Positions 8,961 through 38,233 of a stretch of 64,000 nt of DNA are shown piece after piece. Source of the DNA: Flavobacteriales bacterium. Lineage in GTDB: Bacteria > Bacteroidota > Bacteroidia > Flavobacteriales_C > GCA-002722245. The translations under genes were made by a program, and so were the position numbers. Below the pieces are notes generated by a model. That model saw nothing but the letters and a program-made list of their open reading frames with translations. It did not search any database and was not told where the DNA came from. Where the stretch lies: NCBI GenBank assembly GCA_002722245.1, contig PBLA01000033.1:130813-194812 (forward strand), given 5' to 3'. The first letter of the stretch is position 1. Each line of letters starts with the position of its first letter.

Positions 8961-10896
8961 GTTATTTTCTAAAGCCAACCTTTACCTCGCTGCTACCTGC
9001 TTAATTATTTTTAGCCTTCATAGTTCCCCTCTTCTGTTTGCTCGACTGCTTAATAATGACCCCTCTATGCATACAACACCTTTTGCATACAAAGCTCCTT
9101 TTGGATTAGCGGAAGACAACATTGCGTATGCATGTATGACTCGTTACGCGAGTAAACACCCCCAGCTCTATGTACCCAATGGGGTTGTTAAAGAAAATAA
9201 AAATCAGCGTTTCGCAATTGGAAATGTAGTTATTCTTTATCAAGGAATTCTACATCGTCTTCTCGGAGACATTAATCTAACCTATTACATCGGAGGGTTA
9301 TTACCAATATTTATTGGGGTTATTCTAATTTTCAAAATCATCCAACTTTTTTTTCAGCAACATGCGATCCCTATTGCAGTAGGAAGTTCAATACTTATTT
9401 TGTGCTCAAACTTCAACGACTTTTTTGGTATTCTTCAATTCCTTGATGGAATATTCTTCCAAGAAAATTATCATGGAAACTATCTTGTTTTTGGTTATTC
9501 ACAGCGATTTACCTACGCACAATCTGCACTACCCTTTTTTCTTTTTTGGATTTATCGTTTTCTCCGATATCGAGAAGAGTCTAATTTTAAAAACCAAGCC
9601 CTCTTAATCCTTTCCTTAATTGGATTACAATACGCATATTTCTACTATTGGACGTATGCCATACCTATTGTTATTGCATCCATTATTGTTGAGAAGAAAC
9701 AATGGAAAGAATGGAAATTATTACTCCTAGGATATGTGGTAGGAAGCGCACATTTCTGGTGGCAATATTACACCTTTACACAACTCGATTTTTATACCGA
9801 ATACCAGCAGAAGATGCAAGGAGTTGAAACGTTTCCTCTATTTTGGATTCTTATCGTTGGATCCCTTAATATACTTCCTTTTTTGAGACGCACAAACAAA
9901 CTACTTACTGCAGGTATCTTTTCGGCTCCAATAGTGATTTATATAATGGTTGAATTTATTCATAACTATGGAATACCTCCGTCTAATTTTATCTATAAAT
10001 CGCACTCGTATATTCTGCCATTTCCTTTGATTATCTTTGGTTTTTTAGCATTAAAGAAAAAGCATTGGGGACCGCAAGCATTTTTAAGTTTATCCAACTA
10101 TTTTCTCATTATTCTTCTTTGTTGTTTGAAATTCATTATTGGCTTTAACATCCAACCATTTCATTGGGTTTACACGGCTTTTTACCCACTATTAATTGTG
10201 TCTCTTATAAGTGTTTGGAAAAACTACATTCATTCCAAACACCTAAAATGGACAGTCATTTCCTCCTCTTTAATCATTATTATTATTGGAATAACCAATT
10301 CCTTCAAATTAGCCCAGTTTAATTATAAATTTTGGACAATTCACGATGATGAAATAGAAGTAATTAACCATTTAAAAGAACACCCATACAGTGTGATCGC
10401 AGGAAATAACATGATGCCCCTAATTACTTTTTTGGCCCATACCGACCTCTATATTTATGAAGGAATTTCATGCAATAATATTTCCACTTTTGATGAATCA
10501 GCACAGCGATTCATACACCCCTATAAATTAATGGGTTATTCAAACGAAGGAATTATTGAAGAGTATAAAAAATATGAACAAATACCAAAATACCATCAAC
10601 TATATACCAAAGGAAATATTTTTGAAAGAGACTCTTTGTCCAAAGTTTACCCAGATAATATATTAGGATCAGTAGAAGCTATGCTTCACTACTTTATGAG
10701 TCCTTCTGACTATCTATCAAAATTTAAACAGGCAATAAGTAACTACAATAATAGCGCTCAATTTGAAATGAACAAATTGATTATATATAAACCTACATTC
10801 AAGGGAAACTACTCAAAAATTAAAGGTCTGAAAGTATTCGAAAATGAAACATTCATCATTTATAATGTCTCATATCCTAATACCCTTAAAAAATAA
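8953..10896 (+). CDS. Multipass membrane protein, possibly GT-C-like (unknown function)
   Basis: About 647 residues, with roughly a dozen hydrophobic segments between residues 10 and 450 and then a soluble C-terminal region of about 190 residues. The ATG at 8953 overlaps the dusB stop by 8 bases; an in-frame ATG at 8935 is also possible. The architecture (many membrane helices, long hydrophilic loop after helix 1, soluble tail) resembles integral-membrane GT-C glycosyltransferases, but I see no diagnostic catalytic motif. The overlap with dusB implies one transcript. It converges on the E1 gene without an obvious terminator between. I do not recognise a named family. Confidence 0.75.
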   Translation: MDKLFSKANLYLAATCLIIFSLHSSPLLFARLLNNDPSMHTTPFAYKAPFGLAEDNIAYACMTRYASKHPQLYVPNGVVKENKNQRFAIGNVVILYQGILHRLLGDINLTYYIGGLLPIFIGVILIFKIIQLFFQQHAIPIAVGSSILILCSNFNDFFGILQFLDGIFFQENYHGNYLVFGYSQRFTYAQSALPFFLFWIYRFLRYREESNFKNQALLILSLIGLQYAYFYYWTYAIPIVIASIIVEKKQWKEWKLLLLGYVVGSAHFWWQYYTFTQLDFYTEYQQKMQGVETFPLFWILIVGSLNILPFLRRTNKLLTAGIFSAPIVIYIMVEFIHNYGIPPSNFIYKSHSYILPFPLIIFGFLALKKKHWGPQAFLSLSNYFLIILLCCLKFIIGFNIQPFHWVYTAFYPLLIVSLISVWKNYIHSKHLKWTVISSSLIIIIIGITNSFKLAQFNYKFWTIHDDEIEVINHLKEHPYSVIAGNNMMPLITFLAHTDLYIYEGISCNNISTFDESAQRFIHPYKLMGYSNEGIIEEYKKYEQIPKYHQLYTKGNIFERDSLSKVYPDNILGSVEAMLHYFMSPSDYLSKFKQAISNYNNSAQFEMNKLIIYKPTFKGNYSKIKGLKVFENETFIIYNVSYPNTLKK

Positions 10897-32496: not shown

Positions 32497-32531
32497 AATA
32501 AAAAAGCATCCAAAAGGTCGATTTTTTATTT
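32497..32531. terminator. Weak bidirectional terminator between convergent genes
   Basis: An A-tract (AAATAAAAAA) and T-tract (TTTTTTATT) flank an imperfect CC-AAAA-GG core. It overlaps the thrC stop and lies between two converging genes. The core is weak. Confidence 0.35.
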
Positions 32532-33821
32532 AGCTCTCGCCAGCAAATACTGTTTAAGTTGATTAAAATCCGGTTGAATTAAAGTAGCAACTTTTTCTCT
32601 TTTCATATATTCTTGAAGTCGTTCAGGAACCTCTACTTTTTGACCAATAACAGGTTCAACTACATCTCCAAACTTAGCAGGATGAGCTGTTTCTAAAACT
32701 ACCCCTTGAACATCGTGATGTTTTTGATATTCTTTTACCGCCATGTAACCTATTACACCATGGGGCTCCATAAGATAACCTGTTCTTGAGATTACATCGC
32801 GCATTCCCTCTTTTGTTTCTTCATCACTGAAAGCATAACCAACCATAGACGTTTTTACTTTTTCCCAATCTCCTCCATGTAACTCCAATATTCTTACAAA
32901 ATTAGAAGGGTCGCCAATATCCATAGCATTAGAAATCGTTGGAATTGATGGGCGCGCTTTATATATTCCTGTTTTTAAGTATTCTGGAACAACATCATTA
33001 GCATTTGTTGCTCCAATAAAGCGAGCAATAGGTAATCCCATTTCTTTTGCAAACATACCTGCGGTTAAATTCCCAAAATTTCCTGATGGACAAGAATATA
33101 CAACAGGCTTCGTTTTATCCTCTAATTGCTCATAAGAACCAAAATAATAAAACGATTGCGGTAAAAATCGCGCTACATTAATTGAATTCGCAGAAGACAA
33201 CTTCATTGCTGCACGAAGTTCAGGATCATTAAATGCTTGCTTTACCATGGCCTGACAATCATCAAAAGAACCTTCCACCTCAAGAGTAGAAATATTTTGT
33301 CCCATGGTAGTAAGTTGTTGCTCTTGAATTTTGGACACTAATCCCTTTGGATAAAGAATTACCACATCAATCCCTTCAACACCTAAAAATCCTGAAGCTA
33401 CTGCTGAACCAGTATCTCCTGAAGTTGCTACGAGAATGGTCACCTTATCACCGCTCTGTTGTACAAAATGAGATAAACATCGCCCTAAGAATCGTCCACC
33501 AACATCCTTAAACGCGCAAGTTGGCCCATGCCATAACTCCAAAGAATATACATCCTGTTCCACCTCTACAATAGGCAACGGGAAATTTACCGTTTCAGAC
33601 ACAATTCGCTGTAAATCACTATCCGGAATTTCACCATCCACAAATCGTTTAGCTACCTCATATCCAAGCTCTTCAATGGATGCGCCAGATCCAATTAACC
33701 CCTCTGGTAATTTATCGATTCTTTCGGGGAAATATAAGCCCCCATCTGGAGCTAATCCTCTTATCACCGCATCCTTAAACGAAACTTCTTCAGATTTTTT
33801 TCTCGTACTATAGTATTTCAT
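32526..33821 (-). CDS. thrC: Threonine synthase
   Basis: A 431-residue PLP enzyme converting O-phosphohomoserine to threonine. It begins MKYYSTRKKSEEVSFKDAV and has LAPDGGLYFPE, the Schiff-base lysine K105 in GPTCAFKDVGGRFLGRC, the phosphate-binding VATSGDTGSAVASGFLG and YSCPSGNFGNLTAGM near 240. The length and motifs fit the short bacterial ThrC. Its ATG overlaps the thrB stop by four bases, so it is the last gene of the thrA-thrB-thrC operon. It should be under control of the leader at about 37.4 kb. Confidence 0.97.
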   Translation of the reverse strand: MKYYSTRKKSEEVSFKDAVIRGLAPDGGLYFPERIDKLPEGLIGSGASIEELGYEVAKRFVDGEIPDSDLQRIVSETVNFPLPIVEVEQDVYSLELWHGPTCAFKDVGGRFLGRCLSHFVQQSGDKVTILVATSGDTGSAVASGFLGVEGIDVVILYPKGLVSKIQEQQLTTMGQNISTLEVEGSFDDCQAMVKQAFNDPELRAAMKLSSANSINVARFLPQSFYYFGSYEQLEDKTKPVVYSCPSGNFGNLTAGMFAKEMGLPIARFIGATNANDVVPEYLKTGIYKARPSIPTISNAMDIGDPSNFVRILELHGGDWEKVKTSMVGYAFSDEETKEGMRDVISRTGYLMEPHGVIGYMAVKEYQKHHDVQGVVLETAHPAKFGDVVEPVIGQKVEVPERLQEYMKREKVATLIQPDFNQLKQYLLARAK

Positions 33822-34747
33822 TCTCCTATAATTTTTGCCCCTTCCGAATTAACTTGAGAAACATGAATTTCAAAATCAACCCCAAATTGGGTATATACTT
33901 CAGCCATTGCCTCCTTCACCTTTAACGCGGTTTCTTCCCCCCTGGATAACCCAAATATTGAAGGACCAGAACCAGAAATAGAACAGCCTAGAGCACCCGC
34001 ATTAATTGTCGCTTTTTTTACCTTTTCATACCCAGGAATCAAAATGGATCGAATTGGCTCAATAACAACATCTACCAAAGAACGACCTATTAAATCATAA
34101 TCTTTGGAGTAAAGACCTGCAACGAGCCCTCCAACATTACCCCATTGTGTAATTGCCTTTGATAAATCAATCCCACCTTTTAAAACTCTTCGAGCATCTC
34201 GTGTTTTCACCTCCAGTTGAGGATGAATTACCGTTGCCCAAAGTTCATCTGGAGAATCAATTTTAATCACATCCAATGGATCATAGGAACGAACCAAAGT
34301 AAACCCACCGCAAATTGAGGGAGCCACATTATCCGCATGCGCAACACCAGTGGCACATTTTTCACCTTCCATTGCAAATTCAACCAATTCTTTTCGCGTA
34401 AATGGATTTCCCAACAACTCATTTACAGCAACTACTGCGGCTGCAGAGCTTGCTGCAGAACTCCCAATACCACTTCCTGGCTTTACACCCTTTGTTAACT
34501 CAAGTTCAAAACCTTGTTTAGAGCCCAACTTATTCAGGAGAGCCTTAATCGCAACTCCAGCAACATTTTTATCGGCATCTAACGGAAGGTTCTCTGCATT
34601 ATGACAAGCCGTAATAACCACTTCATGGCTATCCGTTTTCTTTACAACAACTTCATCACCTGGATAATCTAACGCTAATCCTAGCACATCAAATCCACAA
34701 GCTACATTAGCAATGGTTGCGGGAGCAAATACTTTAACTTGATTCAT
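33818..34747 (-). CDS. thrB: Homoserine kinase
   Basis: A 309-residue GHMP kinase phosphorylating L-homoserine. The N-terminal KVFAPATIANVACGFDVLGLAL and the ATP-binding motif PGSGIGSSAASSAAA (90-104) are clear. The late GALGCSISGSGPSIFGL is the third GHMP motif. It is cytoplasmic. Three bases separate it from thrA, and its stop overlaps thrC, so the operon is tightly coupled. The length is normal and no key residue is missing. Confidence 0.97.
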   Translation of the reverse strand: MNQVKVFAPATIANVACGFDVLGLALDYPGDEVVVKKTDSHEVVITACHNAENLPLDADKNVAGVAIKALLNKLGSKQGFELELTKGVKPGSGIGSSAASSAAAVVAVNELLGNPFTRKELVEFAMEGEKCATGVAHADNVAPSICGGFTLVRSYDPLDVIKIDSPDELWATVIHPQLEVKTRDARRVLKGGIDLSKAITQWGNVGGLVAGLYSKDYDLIGRSLVDVVIEPIRSILIPGYEKVKKATINAGALGCSISGSGPSIFGLSRGEETALKVKEAMAEVYTQFGVDFEIHVSQVNSEGAKIIGE

Positions 34748-34750
34748 TAT

Positions 34751-37183
34751 TTAGTAATTAGCTATTCGAACAATATCTGCAAATACTCCTGCTGCGGTAA
34801 CTCCTGCTCCTGCTCCTGCTCCTTGAATAACCATTGGCTGAGCAACATAACGATCCGTGTAAAGCGCAACTGTGTTATCCGTTCCTTGTAAATTATAAAA
34901 AGGATGACTCGAATCTACCGCTTGCAACTCTACCGTGGCCTTTCCATTCTCAAACTTTGCAATAACGCGTAACTTTCTGTTTTCGGCTTGTGCCTCATTA
35001 ACCATAGCGCGGAAAGTTGCTTCGTCGTTACTTAGAACGTTGAAAAAATCTTCAACAGATTCTACCTCAAAACAAGCCTTAGGAAGAATGTCTTTAACTT
35101 CAATATCATCAAACTCCATCTTTATTCCCGCCTCACGAATCAGAATTAAAATTTTACGCTTCACATCTACTCCTGAAAGATCAATTCTAGGATCCGGCTC
35201 CGTGTAACCCTCTGTTTTAGCCTGCATAACTACATCATGAAAAGTATTTTCACCATTGTAGGTATTAAAAATAAAATTCAATGACCCGGATACAGTCGCT
35301 TCAATTTTTTGAATTCGATCGCCTGAATGCACTAAATCGTTAATGGTACCAATTACGGGCAAACCGGCTCCAACATTAGTTTCGTATAGAAACTTAACGT
35401 TATTCTTTAAACAAATATTTTTTAACTCCTGATATAAATCATAATCCGAAGAACAGGCAATTTTATTTGCGGTAACCACATTGATGTTTTTCGATAATGC
35501 TGTTTTGTATACAGAAGCAATTTCATAATTAGCTGTACAATCAACAAACACAGAATTTCTTAAATTCATTTGAGCAATTTGAGCAACCAATTCATCCTTA
35601 TCAAAAGGAAGATCCGACGCTTCAACTTGTTCTTGCCAATCATCTAGCGCAATGCCTGATTCATCCAACAGCATTTTTCTGGAGTTCGCTAAACCAGCAA
35701 CCCGAACAACAATATTTGAATTTTCCTGAAGTGTAGCTTGTTGGCGCTTAATTTGATTAACTAACTCTCCTCCAACATTACCCACACCTACTACAAATAA
35801 ATTCAGGACTTTATTCGATCCCTCAAAATGATTTTCATGAAGGACATTTAACGCCTTTTTTACATCTTTTTCCTCTATCACAGCTGAAATATTTCGTTCT
35901 GATGACCCTTGTGCAATCGCTCTCATATTTATTCCGTTACTACCTAGGGTGTTAAACATTTTACCACTAACATTTACCTGTCCGTTCATCTTCTCCCCAA
36001 CCAATGCAATAACCGATAGCCCTGTTTCCATACGTGGACTATTAATTTTTCCTGTTTGAATTTCAAAAGCAAACTCTTCTCTTACAGCATCTACCGCATC
36101 ATCAATGTCCTCAGGGACAATAGCGAAAGAAATAGAATGCTCCGAAGATGCCTGTGTAATTAGAATGATATTTACTTTGGCGCGCGCGAGGGCTCCAAAT
36201 AAGCGAGCAGAGATACCCGGAATCCCAATCATTCCAGAACCGCTTAAACTTGCTAATGCAATTTGATCAATAGAACTAATTCCTTTGATAGGCATACCCT
36301 CATCAGCACTTGCCGTAATAAGGGTCCCTTGATCCTCTGGCGCAAACGTATTTTTTATTTTTAGTGGAATTCCTTTTTTATAGACTGGTAAAATAGTTGG
36401 TGGGTAAATCACCTTAGCACCAAAATGAGACAACTCCATTGCTTCTTTGTAAGAGGCAAATTTTACTGGAAAAGCGGCTTTCACCTTTCGGGGATCAGCT
36501 GTATACATTCCACTTACATCTGTCCAAATTTGAACCTCAGAGGCTTCCACTCCTGAGGCAAACAGCGCAGCAGAAAAGTCTGAACCTCCTCTACCCAATG
36601 TTGAGGTAATTCCTGCTTGCGTGGAAGCAACAAATCCAGGGGCAACAAATATTTGAGATGAACTTCGCTCAAAATATTCTTTTATGTTTTTGTAGGTCAC
36701 ATCGTACTGTACTGAAGCCCCACCATGTTGGTCATCTGTTAAAATCAAACGCTTAGAATCTACCAATTCAGCGTCCAATACTTTTGAAACCAGAATAGAA
36801 GAAAGAGATTCTCCAAAACTCACCACAAAATCGGATGTTTTTGGCGACAATTCCTGTACCAAGTAAACCCCACTTAAAATATCCTCCAGTTGATTTAAGA
36901 GTACTTTTATAGTAGCAATGACACCACTTTGTTCATCAATGGAAATCAATGATCGAACCGCATCAAAATGTTTCGCCTCAATTTCTTTAACAATCTCCTT
37001 GTAAGAATTATCACCATTTGCAGCTAAATCGCTTGCGGCTAAAAGCTTATTGGTGACTTGAGACATTGCCGAAACAACAACAATAACTCGCTCTTCCTTC
37101 GCTTCATTGGCAATAATTGCACTCACTTTTTTGATTGAGTCCGATGTTCCAACTGATGTTCCTCCAAATTTTAAAACTTTCAT
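34751..37183 (-). CDS. thrA: Bifunctional aspartate kinase / homoserine dehydrogenase
   Basis: An 810-residue fusion. The kinase part (about 1-460) has MKVLKFGGTSVG, VVVSAMSQVTN, SFGESLSSILV, TLGRGGSDFSA and a two-ACT regulatory region (GIPGISARLFGALARAKVNII). The homoserine dehydrogenase part (about 465-810) starts with LNLFVVGVGNVGGELV (NAD(P)-binding), then TANKIACSSDYDLYQEL, GAGLPVIGTINDLVHSGD and GAGAGAGVTAAGVFADIV. It catalyses the first and third steps from aspartate to threonine. The ATG at 37183 gives the standard MKVLKFGGTS start; a longer reading is not needed. It is the first gene of thrABC, with a leader of about 250 bases upstream. Confidence 0.97.
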   Translation of the reverse strand: MKVLKFGGTSVGTSDSIKKVSAIIANEAKEERVIVVVSAMSQVTNKLLAASDLAANGDNSYKEIVKEIEAKHFDAVRSLISIDEQSGVIATIKVLLNQLEDILSGVYLVQELSPKTSDFVVSFGESLSSILVSKVLDAELVDSKRLILTDDQHGGASVQYDVTYKNIKEYFERSSSQIFVAPGFVASTQAGITSTLGRGGSDFSAALFASGVEASEVQIWTDVSGMYTADPRKVKAAFPVKFASYKEAMELSHFGAKVIYPPTILPVYKKGIPLKIKNTFAPEDQGTLITASADEGMPIKGISSIDQIALASLSGSGMIGIPGISARLFGALARAKVNIILITQASSEHSISFAIVPEDIDDAVDAVREEFAFEIQTGKINSPRMETGLSVIALVGEKMNGQVNVSGKMFNTLGSNGINMRAIAQGSSERNISAVIEEKDVKKALNVLHENHFEGSNKVLNLFVVGVGNVGGELVNQIKRQQATLQENSNIVVRVAGLANSRKMLLDESGIALDDWQEQVEASDLPFDKDELVAQIAQMNLRNSVFVDCTANYEIASVYKTALSKNINVVTANKIACSSDYDLYQELKNICLKNNVKFLYETNVGAGLPVIGTINDLVHSGDRIQKIEATVSGSLNFIFNTYNGENTFHDVVMQAKTEGYTEPDPRIDLSGVDVKRKILILIREAGIKMEFDDIEVKDILPKACFEVESVEDFFNVLSNDEATFRAMVNEAQAENRKLRVIAKFENGKATVELQAVDSSHPFYNLQGTDNTVALYTDRYVAQPMVIQGAGAGAGVTAAGVFADIVRIANY

Positions 37184-37255: not shown

Positions 37256-37270
37256 TGCGCCGCAGGCGCA
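37256..37270 (-). other. GC-rich hairpin in the thr leader
   Basis: Perfect 6-bp stem TGCGCC/GGCGCA with a 3-base loop, about 75 bases before thrA. On the transcript it is preceded, not followed, by a U-run, so it is not a standard terminator. It may be an anti-terminator or pause element. Confidence 0.6.
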
Positions 37271-37340
37271 AAAATATTGAATATTAGTGCGACTAGCTAA
37301 CGTTTTAGTCAGAAATAAATAACCCTATAAATTATATGTA

Positions 37341-37362
37341 AAAATTAAACCCCAAAAGGGGT
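37341..37362 (-). terminator. Candidate attenuator hairpin at the end of the thr leader ORF
   Basis: On the transcript ACCCC-TTTT-GGGGT is followed by TTAATTTTT. The 5' arm is formed by the ACC (Thr24) and CCT codons of the leader ORF, and the hairpin ends at its stop codon. The stem has only five pairs but four are G-C. Confidence 0.6.
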
Positions 37363-37431
37363 AATAATAGCAATAGCAATAACGGTTGTAGTTGCTGAAA
37401 TCAATAAGATATTCTTGCTAATCATATGCAT
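37345..37431 (-). CDS. Threonine/isoleucine-rich leader peptide of the thr operon (thrL-like)
   Basis: A 28-codon ORF (ATG 37431, or the in-frame ATG at 37425) in the thrA 5' region. It reads MHMISKNILLISATTTVIAI followed by AIITPFGV. It contains three consecutive Thr codons (14-16), a fourth Thr at 24 and seven Ile codons. Thr and Ile are the residues that a thr operon leader would sense, as in the Thr/Ile-rich ThrL of enterobacteria. The stop sits inside a G-C hairpin followed by a T-run, and a TATCTTTG promoter element lies 10 bases upstream of the first ATG. Translation here probably controls transcription of thrABC by attenuation. The composition, position and operon identity agree strongly; regulation itself is inferred. 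Confidence 0.78.
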   Translation of the reverse strand: MHMISKNILLISATTTVIAIAIITPFGV

Positions 37432-37440
37432 AATGAAGAG

Positions 37441-37448
37441 CAAAGATA
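37441..37448 (-). promoter_or_regulatory. Candidate -7 promoter element (TAnnTTTG) of the thr operon
   Basis: On the minus strand TATCTTTG matches the Bacteroidota -7 consensus, with a TTG 16 bases upstream (slightly short spacing). It would start a transcript a few bases before the leader ATG. Confidence 0.55.
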
Positions 37449-37510: not shown

Positions 37511-38233
37511 GTGCTTATTCAAAAACCATATTTTTTTTTACTCCCTCTCTTTGCTGTACTTTTTACAAGCTGTCACACTAAATTTAAAGACAGCTACAGT
37601 GGTGGATCAGGAGGAAGAAAATATAGACTTAAATTCAACGATTCATACGGTGGCGGGTCAGGTCGAAAAAAACAATTAGGCTTTAGAGACTCCTATCGAG
37701 GAGGAGGAGGAAGGAGAAGCCAGCATGGCTTCAAAGACACTTATGGAGGAGGAAGTGGAAGACGAAATCAACACGGATTTAAAGATTCATACGCAGGTGG
37801 CGGTGGAAGACGAAATCAACTTGGATTTAAAGACTCATACAGAGGAGGAGGTGGAAGAAAAGGTCAAATAGGATTTCGAGACACCTATGGCAGTAGAGGA
37901 AATGGAAGAAAGAATCAACATGGATTCAAAGACTCTTACGGAGGTCAATCCGGACGAAAAAACCAACATGGATTCAAAGATTCATATCGAAAAAATAGTC
38001 GAGGCAAAATAAAAACGAAATACAATAAAGATCCCTATAATTCATCTGCTAAAAGGAAAACAAGAGGGTATCAAGATCCGGATCGAAAATGGTATAAAAT
38101 TGGAAGTAAACAAAAGCGCGAAGGAAAACCATTTAAAAATCGAAAAACATACACTACAAAGGATAAAAAGCATACCATTCCAAAAAAGAAAAAGAAAGTA
38201 AATCGGTCAACAAAATTTGAAGGACAAAAATAA
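37511..38233 (+). CDS. Repeat lipoprotein with nine 16-residue Gly/Arg/Tyr repeats
   Basis: A 240-residue protein from a GTG at 37511, with a hydrophobic signal ending in LFTSC (C21). From residue 25 it consists of about nine copies of a 16-residue unit, typified by FKDSYGGGSGRKNQHG and FKDSYAGGGGRRNQLG. Two degenerate units (YNKDPYNSS, YQDPDRKWYK) and a Lys-rich tail follow. It is extremely basic, with no other domain. The mature protein should be lipid-anchored in the envelope and disordered; the Arg/Gly/Tyr content would suit binding of acidic polysaccharide or nucleic acid. A T9 tract in the signal region and an alternative ATG at 37485 in another frame make the true start uncertain. It is divergent from the thr leader. 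Confidence 0.75.
   Translation: MLIQKPYFFLLPLFAVLFTSCHTKFKDSYSGGSGGRKYRLKFNDSYGGGSGRKKQLGFRDSYRGGGGRRSQHGFKDTYGGGSGRRNQHGFKDSYAGGGGRRNQLGFKDSYRGGGGRKGQIGFRDTYGSRGNGRKNQHGFKDSYGGQSGRKNQHGFKDSYRKNSRGKIKTKYNKDPYNSSAKRKTRGYQDPDRKWYKIGSKQKREGKPFKNRKTYTTKDKKHTIPKKKKKVNRSTKFEGQK
37582..38010 (+). repeat. Tandem 48-bp coding repeats
   Basis: Nine diverged 48-bp units encode the 16-residue repeats of the lipoprotein; one unit carries an extra codon (TYGSRGNGRKN). Units share TTYAARGAYTCNTAY at the start and GGNMGNMGNAAYCAA later. Divergence is mostly synonymous or K/R exchanges. Confidence 0.85.

Follow-up and report, generated by a model that had tools for sequence, protein, structure and literature searches.

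A Thr/Ile-rich leader peptide with an overlapping hairpin as a candidate attenuator of non-classical architecture upstream of thrABC in Bacteroidia

Leader region of thrABC in the window

In the window, i.e., the whole stretch of 64,000 nt analyzed in this study, the threonine operon thrABC is preceded by a short reading frame rich in Thr and Ile codons, which raises the question of whether the operon is controlled through a leader peptide and, if so, by which RNA parts. The three genes were assigned via NCBIfam models (Table 1), and thrA most likely starts at 37183, based on a start (MKVLKFGG) common to relatives. The source bacterium and its close metagenome-assembled relatives are probably marine. 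An earlier reading of the bare sequence (the sequence-only reading) had described a 28-codon ORF about 160 bases upstream of thrA with Thr at positions 14, 15, 16, and 24 and seven Ile, a promoter-like element just 5' of it, a hairpin arm formed by its last codons, and a later hairpin without a U-run, placed at 37256–37270. All of these features were recovered: the distance from the leader stop to the thrA start was measured as 161 nt, the residues are those named, TATCTTTG is located 9 nt from the leader ATG, one hairpin overlaps the end of the leader, and the later hairpin, given slightly different ends here, indeed lacks a U-run. Two elements absent from that description were added, namely a second -7-like box whose end overlaps hairpin 3 and another kept hairpin (hairpin 2).

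Table 1. Features of the thrABC leader region and operon in the window, with the observations on which each assignment is based
Feature	Position	Strand	Basis
Leader ORF, 28 codons, MHMISKNILLISATTTVIAIAIITPFGV and stop	37345..37431	-	Sequence (ATG at 37431, TAA at 37347–37345); same length in 5/5 species of the genus
Thr codons 14–16 (ACT ACA ACC)	37384..37392	-	Sequence; relatives have Thr/Ile codons in the same part of the leader
Thr24 codon ACC, first codon of the hairpin 1 5' arm, proposed stall site	37360..37362	-	Frame comparison
-7 element TATCTTTG of leader promoter P1, Bacteroidota type TAnnTTTG	37441..37448	-	Kept in relatives
Possible -33 element (TTG) of leader promoter P1	37465..37467	-	Sequence; weak alone
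Hairpin 1, ACCCC-UUUU-GGGGU, then UUAAUUUUUA	37349..37362	-	Built from the last leader codons
Box ACAUAUAAU	37331..37339	-	Kept in several families, as ACAUAUMAUCC or similar
Hairpin 2, GACUA...UAGUC in the window	37291..37310	-	Up to 8 bp in four genus relatives
Second -7-like box TATTTTTG, possible internal promoter P2	37269..37276	-	Same position in 5/5 species of the genus
Hairpin 3, GCGCC-UGC-GGCGC, without U-run after it	37257..37269	-	Four of five pairs invariant; genus-specific
thrA, bifunctional aspartate kinase/homoserine dehydrogenase I	34751..37183	-	NCBIfam NF006959, 1021.8 bits, above cut-off
thrB, homoserine kinase	33818..34747	-	NCBIfam NF002288 and TIGR00191, above cut-off
thrC, threonine synthase	32526..33821	-	NCBIfam TIGR00260, above cut-off

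The leader region lies on the minus strand between a divergent gene beginning at 37511 and thrA. At the place of the possible -33 element, distant relatives revealed TTTG or T-rich sequence. Hairpin 1 ends one base 5' of the leader stop codon and was the sole site found by a terminator scan of the region (0.2 expected in shuffles). Its folding energy is unexceptional in single-sequence folding (z of -1.3), so that the case for the hairpin rests on conservation, and folding was not used as evidence. The second -7-like box has a poor -33 element and was not kept in most other families; it may be a leader-independent promoter feeding thrA. The divergent gene (37511–38233, plus strand) encodes a predicted lipoprotein with repeats at 37682–37986, whose unit of 48 bases (16 residues) is of the type GFKDSYGGGSGRKNQH; the other species of the genus have similar repeat-coding sequence in the corresponding position.

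Conservation in the genus and across Bacteroidia

Comparison of thrA upstream regions, which the sequence-only reading had proposed as a check, clearly revealed conservation, with a short Thr/Ile ORF kept. In the four other species of the genus, thrA is preceded by a 28-codon ORF ending in AIITP[FI]G[VA] and the stop, by the hairpin, and by a TAnnTTTG box 8–9 nt 5' of the leader start. The remainder of the peptide varies freely and is still rich in Thr and Ile, and all five species carry Ile at codon positions -2 and -1 before the hairpin. Covariation within the genus did not exceed that of shuffles, five sequences being too few for this test; the one pair of hairpin 2 changed on both sides (C-G to U-A) belongs to this same small set. 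In the sister genus, no leader was found in the thrA upstream region, which has a promoter-like TATTTTCG box near thrA instead. Judged from these regions, the leader is dispensable in the sister genus and was lost there, which counts against an attenuator at this locus. Tracing of the element within its own family past the genus of the window was stopped by this loss.

For a wider comparison, thrA upstream regions were collected from 91 Bacteroidia genomes and then from 67 more of one large family, apparently Flavobacteriaceae in view of its size and of the named carriers Robiginitalea and a Winogradskyella MAG. Within 330 nt before thrA, the pattern ACCC-N3-7-GGG was detected in 68 of the 78 large-family genomes (1.1 expected from dinucleotide shuffles), and the same pattern occurred upstream of hisG in 1/18 and upstream of ilvD in 0/20 cases. 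In some of the large-family genomes without the pattern, thrA is located directly behind another gene. Altogether, 87 related elements were compared. In every one of them (87/87), the Thr-richest frame puts a Thr codon ACC at the 5' base of the hairpin, a count in which the identity of ACC was fixed by the search pattern and its being in frame with the Thr run was not. Among the codons before the hairpin, Thr accounts for 39–57% at positions -6, -5, -4, -2, and -1 and for 31% at -3 (n = 87). A TAnnTTTG -7 box was present within 180 nt 5' of the hairpin in 75/87 elements compared to 13.3 expected, typically 8–22 nt before the start codon. For the leaders with a called promoter and ATG, the frame was open from the ATG to the hairpin in 70/70, with counts of 8 and 25 for the other two frames, the calling of the ATG itself having required an open frame.

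A covariance model of hairpin and box, run against 150 genomes, resulted in 68 matches. Of these, 64 lie immediately upstream of thrA, including 14 in genomes outside model building. The other four, away from known thrA, were weak (G516:C61:1161, G430:C138:1309, G464:C1:1742862, and G445:C15:60556). Upstream regions of ilvD and hisG carried textbook attenuators or none, and not the design of the thr leader. As far as sequence comparison can carry it, the element is real, exceeds chance, and is common in Bacteroidia, and the sensing half is well supported. The proposal of the sequence-only reading, a Thr/Ile leader as candidate attenuator with non-enterobacterial logic and stalling at Thr24 within the hairpin arm, is thereby strongly supported.

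Two observations concern the leaders of other families. In the large family, thr leader promoters carry a palindrome, CAAAAGTA-N-TACTTTTG, that overlaps their -7 box, e.g., in L111 and L154, with two or fewer mismatches between the halves at 42/70 promoters; it looks like a regulator site and was not seen in the genus of the window. In two further families (L095, L097, L079, L098, and L106), codons for Met accompany those for Thr near the hairpin of the thr leaders, e.g., ...MFMCTMTLRG and ...TWALTMTPWGV up to the stop, so that methionine may also be sensed there.

Several lines of evidence point to selection on the structure of the hairpin. In the codon that precedes it, the third base can pair with the base opposite in 58/87 elements compared to 38.5 (sd 4.2) in shuffles, a figure uncontrolled for relatedness. 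Coding does not account for the 3' arm, since 19/87 leaders reach their stop codon before this arm or within it. Swapped arms, ACGGG-GUAA-CCCGU or near variants, one of them only three pairs long, were found in six of the seven genomes of another family; here the loop contains the stop, and the 5' base is once more formed by the last Thr codon, which has become ACG. This swap indicates that structure, and not sequence, is conserved. On the 3' side of hairpin 1 follows the box, as ACAUAUMAUCC in several families and as UAUAUUCUUCAGG or UAUAUCCGUCCGU in others, and after it hairpin 2. In 18 members of one group, 96% of the hairpin 2 cells were paired and three pairs were changed on both sides, and the two-hairpin structure of these members scored above all 500 shuffles and all slid versions in both paired cells and covariation.

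Conservation of this downstream part would also be expected for post-transcriptional control, in which the two hairpins flank a cleavage or protein-binding site (the ACAUAUMAUCC box) and the position of the ribosome sets mRNA decay or thrA translation, and not termination of transcription. The box and hairpin 2 are kept though neither resembles a part of a terminator, and in another family hairpin 2 carries two-sided changes at three pairs; however, there is no known partner, and pairing to the thrA start was not found. We regard this explanation as rather improbable.

The second -7-like box leads to another explanation, namely that the thr genes are driven mainly from there and that the leader is incidental or a minor transcript. 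None of the five species of the genus departs from its position, and the sister genus has its similar proximal box without a leader. Nevertheless, selection on the leader frame, the Thr/Ile codons, and the hairpin would not persist if the leader were incidental, transcription started from this box would break up a hairpin at the expected start site, and the poor -33 element also speaks against it, which makes this explanation quite improbable. A thrA promoter downstream of 37345 had been named by the sequence-only reading as a result that would contradict it. Such a promoter may exist at this box; it would bypass and not abolish the leader. That it could do so, being kept in the genus, still counts against control by the leader.

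Terminator and antiterminator parts

In the following, type 2 denotes the design found in the window and type 1 the textbook attenuator that precedes thrA in another Bacteroidia family. Between leader and thrA, a lenient terminator test was positive in 28 of the 87 related elements, mostly marginally at hairpin 1, and no terminator-like site was detected in the other 59; hairpin 1 itself passed in 23/87, again mostly marginally. The same test was positive for hisG of the same genomes in 17/18 cases and for type 1 thrA in 13/14. As for a competing helix, the downstream pairing of the hairpin 3' arm over the 87 elements scored 13.2 compared to 13.8 in shuffles, whereas the type 1 thrA control reached 21.1 compared to 13.6. 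Only L003/L004 and L005/L006 offered species-specific possibilities for such a helix. Since the hisG and type 1 controls were positive, the absence of terminator and antiterminator is specific to this thr leader. Thus, neither the U-run terminator nor the antiterminator helix that define the classical (trp/his/thr-type) attenuator is present as a conserved feature. The hallmarks of a leader-peptide attenuator, a short ORF rich in codons for the product amino acid and, after the control codons, a predicted RNA structure placed where a stalled ribosome would act on it, are both present in these sequences.

These results bear on two explanations with a terminator. In a classical 1:2/2:3/3:4 attenuator, hairpin 1 would be the 1:2 pause hairpin, its 3' arm would form the antiterminator with the 5' arm of hairpin 3, and hairpin 3 would be the terminator. 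Like a 1:2 hairpin, hairpin 1 overlaps the end of the leader, and in two of five species (L003 and L004) GGGGCGUAA pairs with UUGCGCC of hairpin 3 over 10–11 contiguous pairs. In the species of the window, L005, and L006, however, pairing of the GGGGCGUAA type is impossible in that form, hairpin 3 is genus-specific and lacks the U-run, and the shuffle comparison given above separates the 87 elements from textbook thrA. A classical attenuator is therefore very improbable.

Alternatively, as in E. coli pyrBI, hairpin 1 with UUAAUUUUU might be a plain intrinsic terminator overlapping the leader, which terminates unless covered by the ribosome. The window site passes the terminator scan, as do L005 and L006, and terminator hairpins of E. 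coli are known to be repressed by a nearby ribosome (PMC4824070). Against this stand the weaker U-tracts of L003 and L004 and the few, mostly marginal hairpins passing the lenient test. We therefore consider a plain overlapping terminator unlikely as the general explanation. The label of intrinsic terminator may thus suit the window, but it does not generalize, since most relatives lack the U-run.

In the large family, the stretch from hairpin 1 to thrA contains 17% C and 7% G, compared to 16% C and 13% G before hisG. Attenuators that depend on Rho would expose RNA that is rich in C, poor in G, and unstructured once the leader has been translated. In general, 5' UTRs are often G-poor, and G depletion is at most an indirect sign of Rho.

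A search with Rfam RF00506 (Thr_leader) resulted in no match at the gathering score for the window and ten relatives, and none up to E = 5 for the region. The element is also absent from Rfam 15, where searches gave nothing relevant, so that the thr leader is an RNA element new to Rfam. No paper describing it was found in the part of the literature covered; an earlier comparative account of Bacteroidota thr leaders may exist, one comparative paper (Lopatovskaya et al. 2010) being cited in PMC4833913. General remarks on leader peptides are given for Flavobacterium psychrophilum (PMC9723704) and Bacteroides thetaiotaomicron (PMC7366714), with nothing on this element.

Proposed switch and related systems

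Based on these data, we think it probable that thrABC is controlled by a ribosome-stalling attenuator of non-classical architecture, which would sense charged tRNA-Thr and, in this genus, tRNA-Ile as well. The leader ORF is probably translated, as conservation of its frame suggests. Transcription would start just downstream of the -7 box of P1, and the leader would be translated while emerging. If Thr or Ile is scarce, the ribosome would stall on the last Thr/Ile codons, and since the 5' base of hairpin 1 is formed by the final Thr codon, the ribosome, once stalled, would cover the 5' arm and hold the hairpin open, so that RNA polymerase could continue into thrA. If Thr is plentiful, the ribosome would leave at the stop codon, the hairpin would close, and thrA expression would drop; the same would be expected if the leader were not translated at all. 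As a ribosome at the stop codon would also cover the hairpin, the switch would require fast release or a slow RNA polymerase.

Stalling and the direction of its effect are deduced from the arrangement of codons and hairpin, and the action of the closed hairpin is the least certain part of the proposal. In the window, hairpin 1 may be a weak intrinsic terminator. For the relatives without a U-run, we favor termination assisted by a Rho-type factor, or pausing stabilized by the hairpin in the G-poor stretch. On the scale of the phylum, we propose only tentatively that such attenuators might work without intrinsic terminator or antiterminator. In these, the terminal Thr codon would lie in the effector hairpin, the stalled ribosome would itself be the antiterminator, and the closed hairpin together with the conserved box 8–22 nt downstream would stop transcription via a factor or a programmed pause.

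Among the known systems, E. coli ThrL senses the product of the pathway and a derivative of it. It resembles the leader of the window as a short Thr/Ile-rich peptide before thrABC (Rfam RF00506). In comparison, type 2 has neither a strong U-tract terminator nor a conserved antiterminator helix, and its hairpin begins at the last Thr codon and includes or abuts the stop. The type 1 attenuator (L050, L051, L055, L081, and others) precedes the same gene with a Thr/Ile leader (MTINNTTIITIITTGINFGGR and stop), but differs in having a long terminator, GCCTTCCTCC...GGAAGGC-T7, and a leader whose tail is complementary to the 5' arm of that terminator, neither of which was found in type 2. In all, type 1 loci comprise L047, L050–L052, L055, L064, L075, L081, L082, L083, L086, L089, L096, and L099, and 13 of these 14 have a U-run terminator of the GCCTTCCTCC...GGAAGGC type or similar. 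Within the same cell, the hisG attenuator (L190) also has a leader peptide (HIHHH) before an amino-acid operon, yet unlike the thr leader it revealed a classical strong terminator, GAGCCACGC...GCGTGGCTT-TTT. This hisG region (L190, G000:C1 near 9002–9547; also L191) encodes the leader MNKQKHIHHHFTTLPRA up to the stop, followed by the terminator GAGCCACGCTAATTAGCGTGGCTT-TTT.

Two further systems share part of the design. The pyrL leader responds to UTP through pausing of RNA polymerase, not through codon-specific stalling, and has a true U-tract terminator. In E. coli pyrBI, the leader ORF overlaps the effector hairpin and the position of the ribosome decides on folding (PMC5021804, PMC4824070), as is proposed for type 2. 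Salmonella mgtL is an amino-acid-sensing leader with a Rho readout and able to act without an intrinsic terminator (PMC5021804), but it senses Pro and uses competing stem-loops, whereas no competing helix was found in the thr leader.

Attenuation is a textbook case of RNA-level control, and its parts list of pause hairpin, antiterminator, and U-run terminator is enterobacterial. The thr leader of many Bacteroidota families seems to have kept the codons and one hairpin and dropped the rest, while the histidine version in the same cells is of the textbook kind, and thr and his leaders thus offer a natural comparison for the minimal needs of a ribosome-controlled switch. The element is also a pointer to the regulation of amino-acid synthesis in Bacteroidota, a major marine and gut phylum in which transcription termination has been little studied.

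Apart from that, the genome harbors two full-length ilvD genes, L198 (G000:C6) and L211 (G000:C9), neither of them with a leader peptide. Of the relatives checked within the genus, none has more than one, and the second copy could be a duplication or stem from contamination (4.15% reported).
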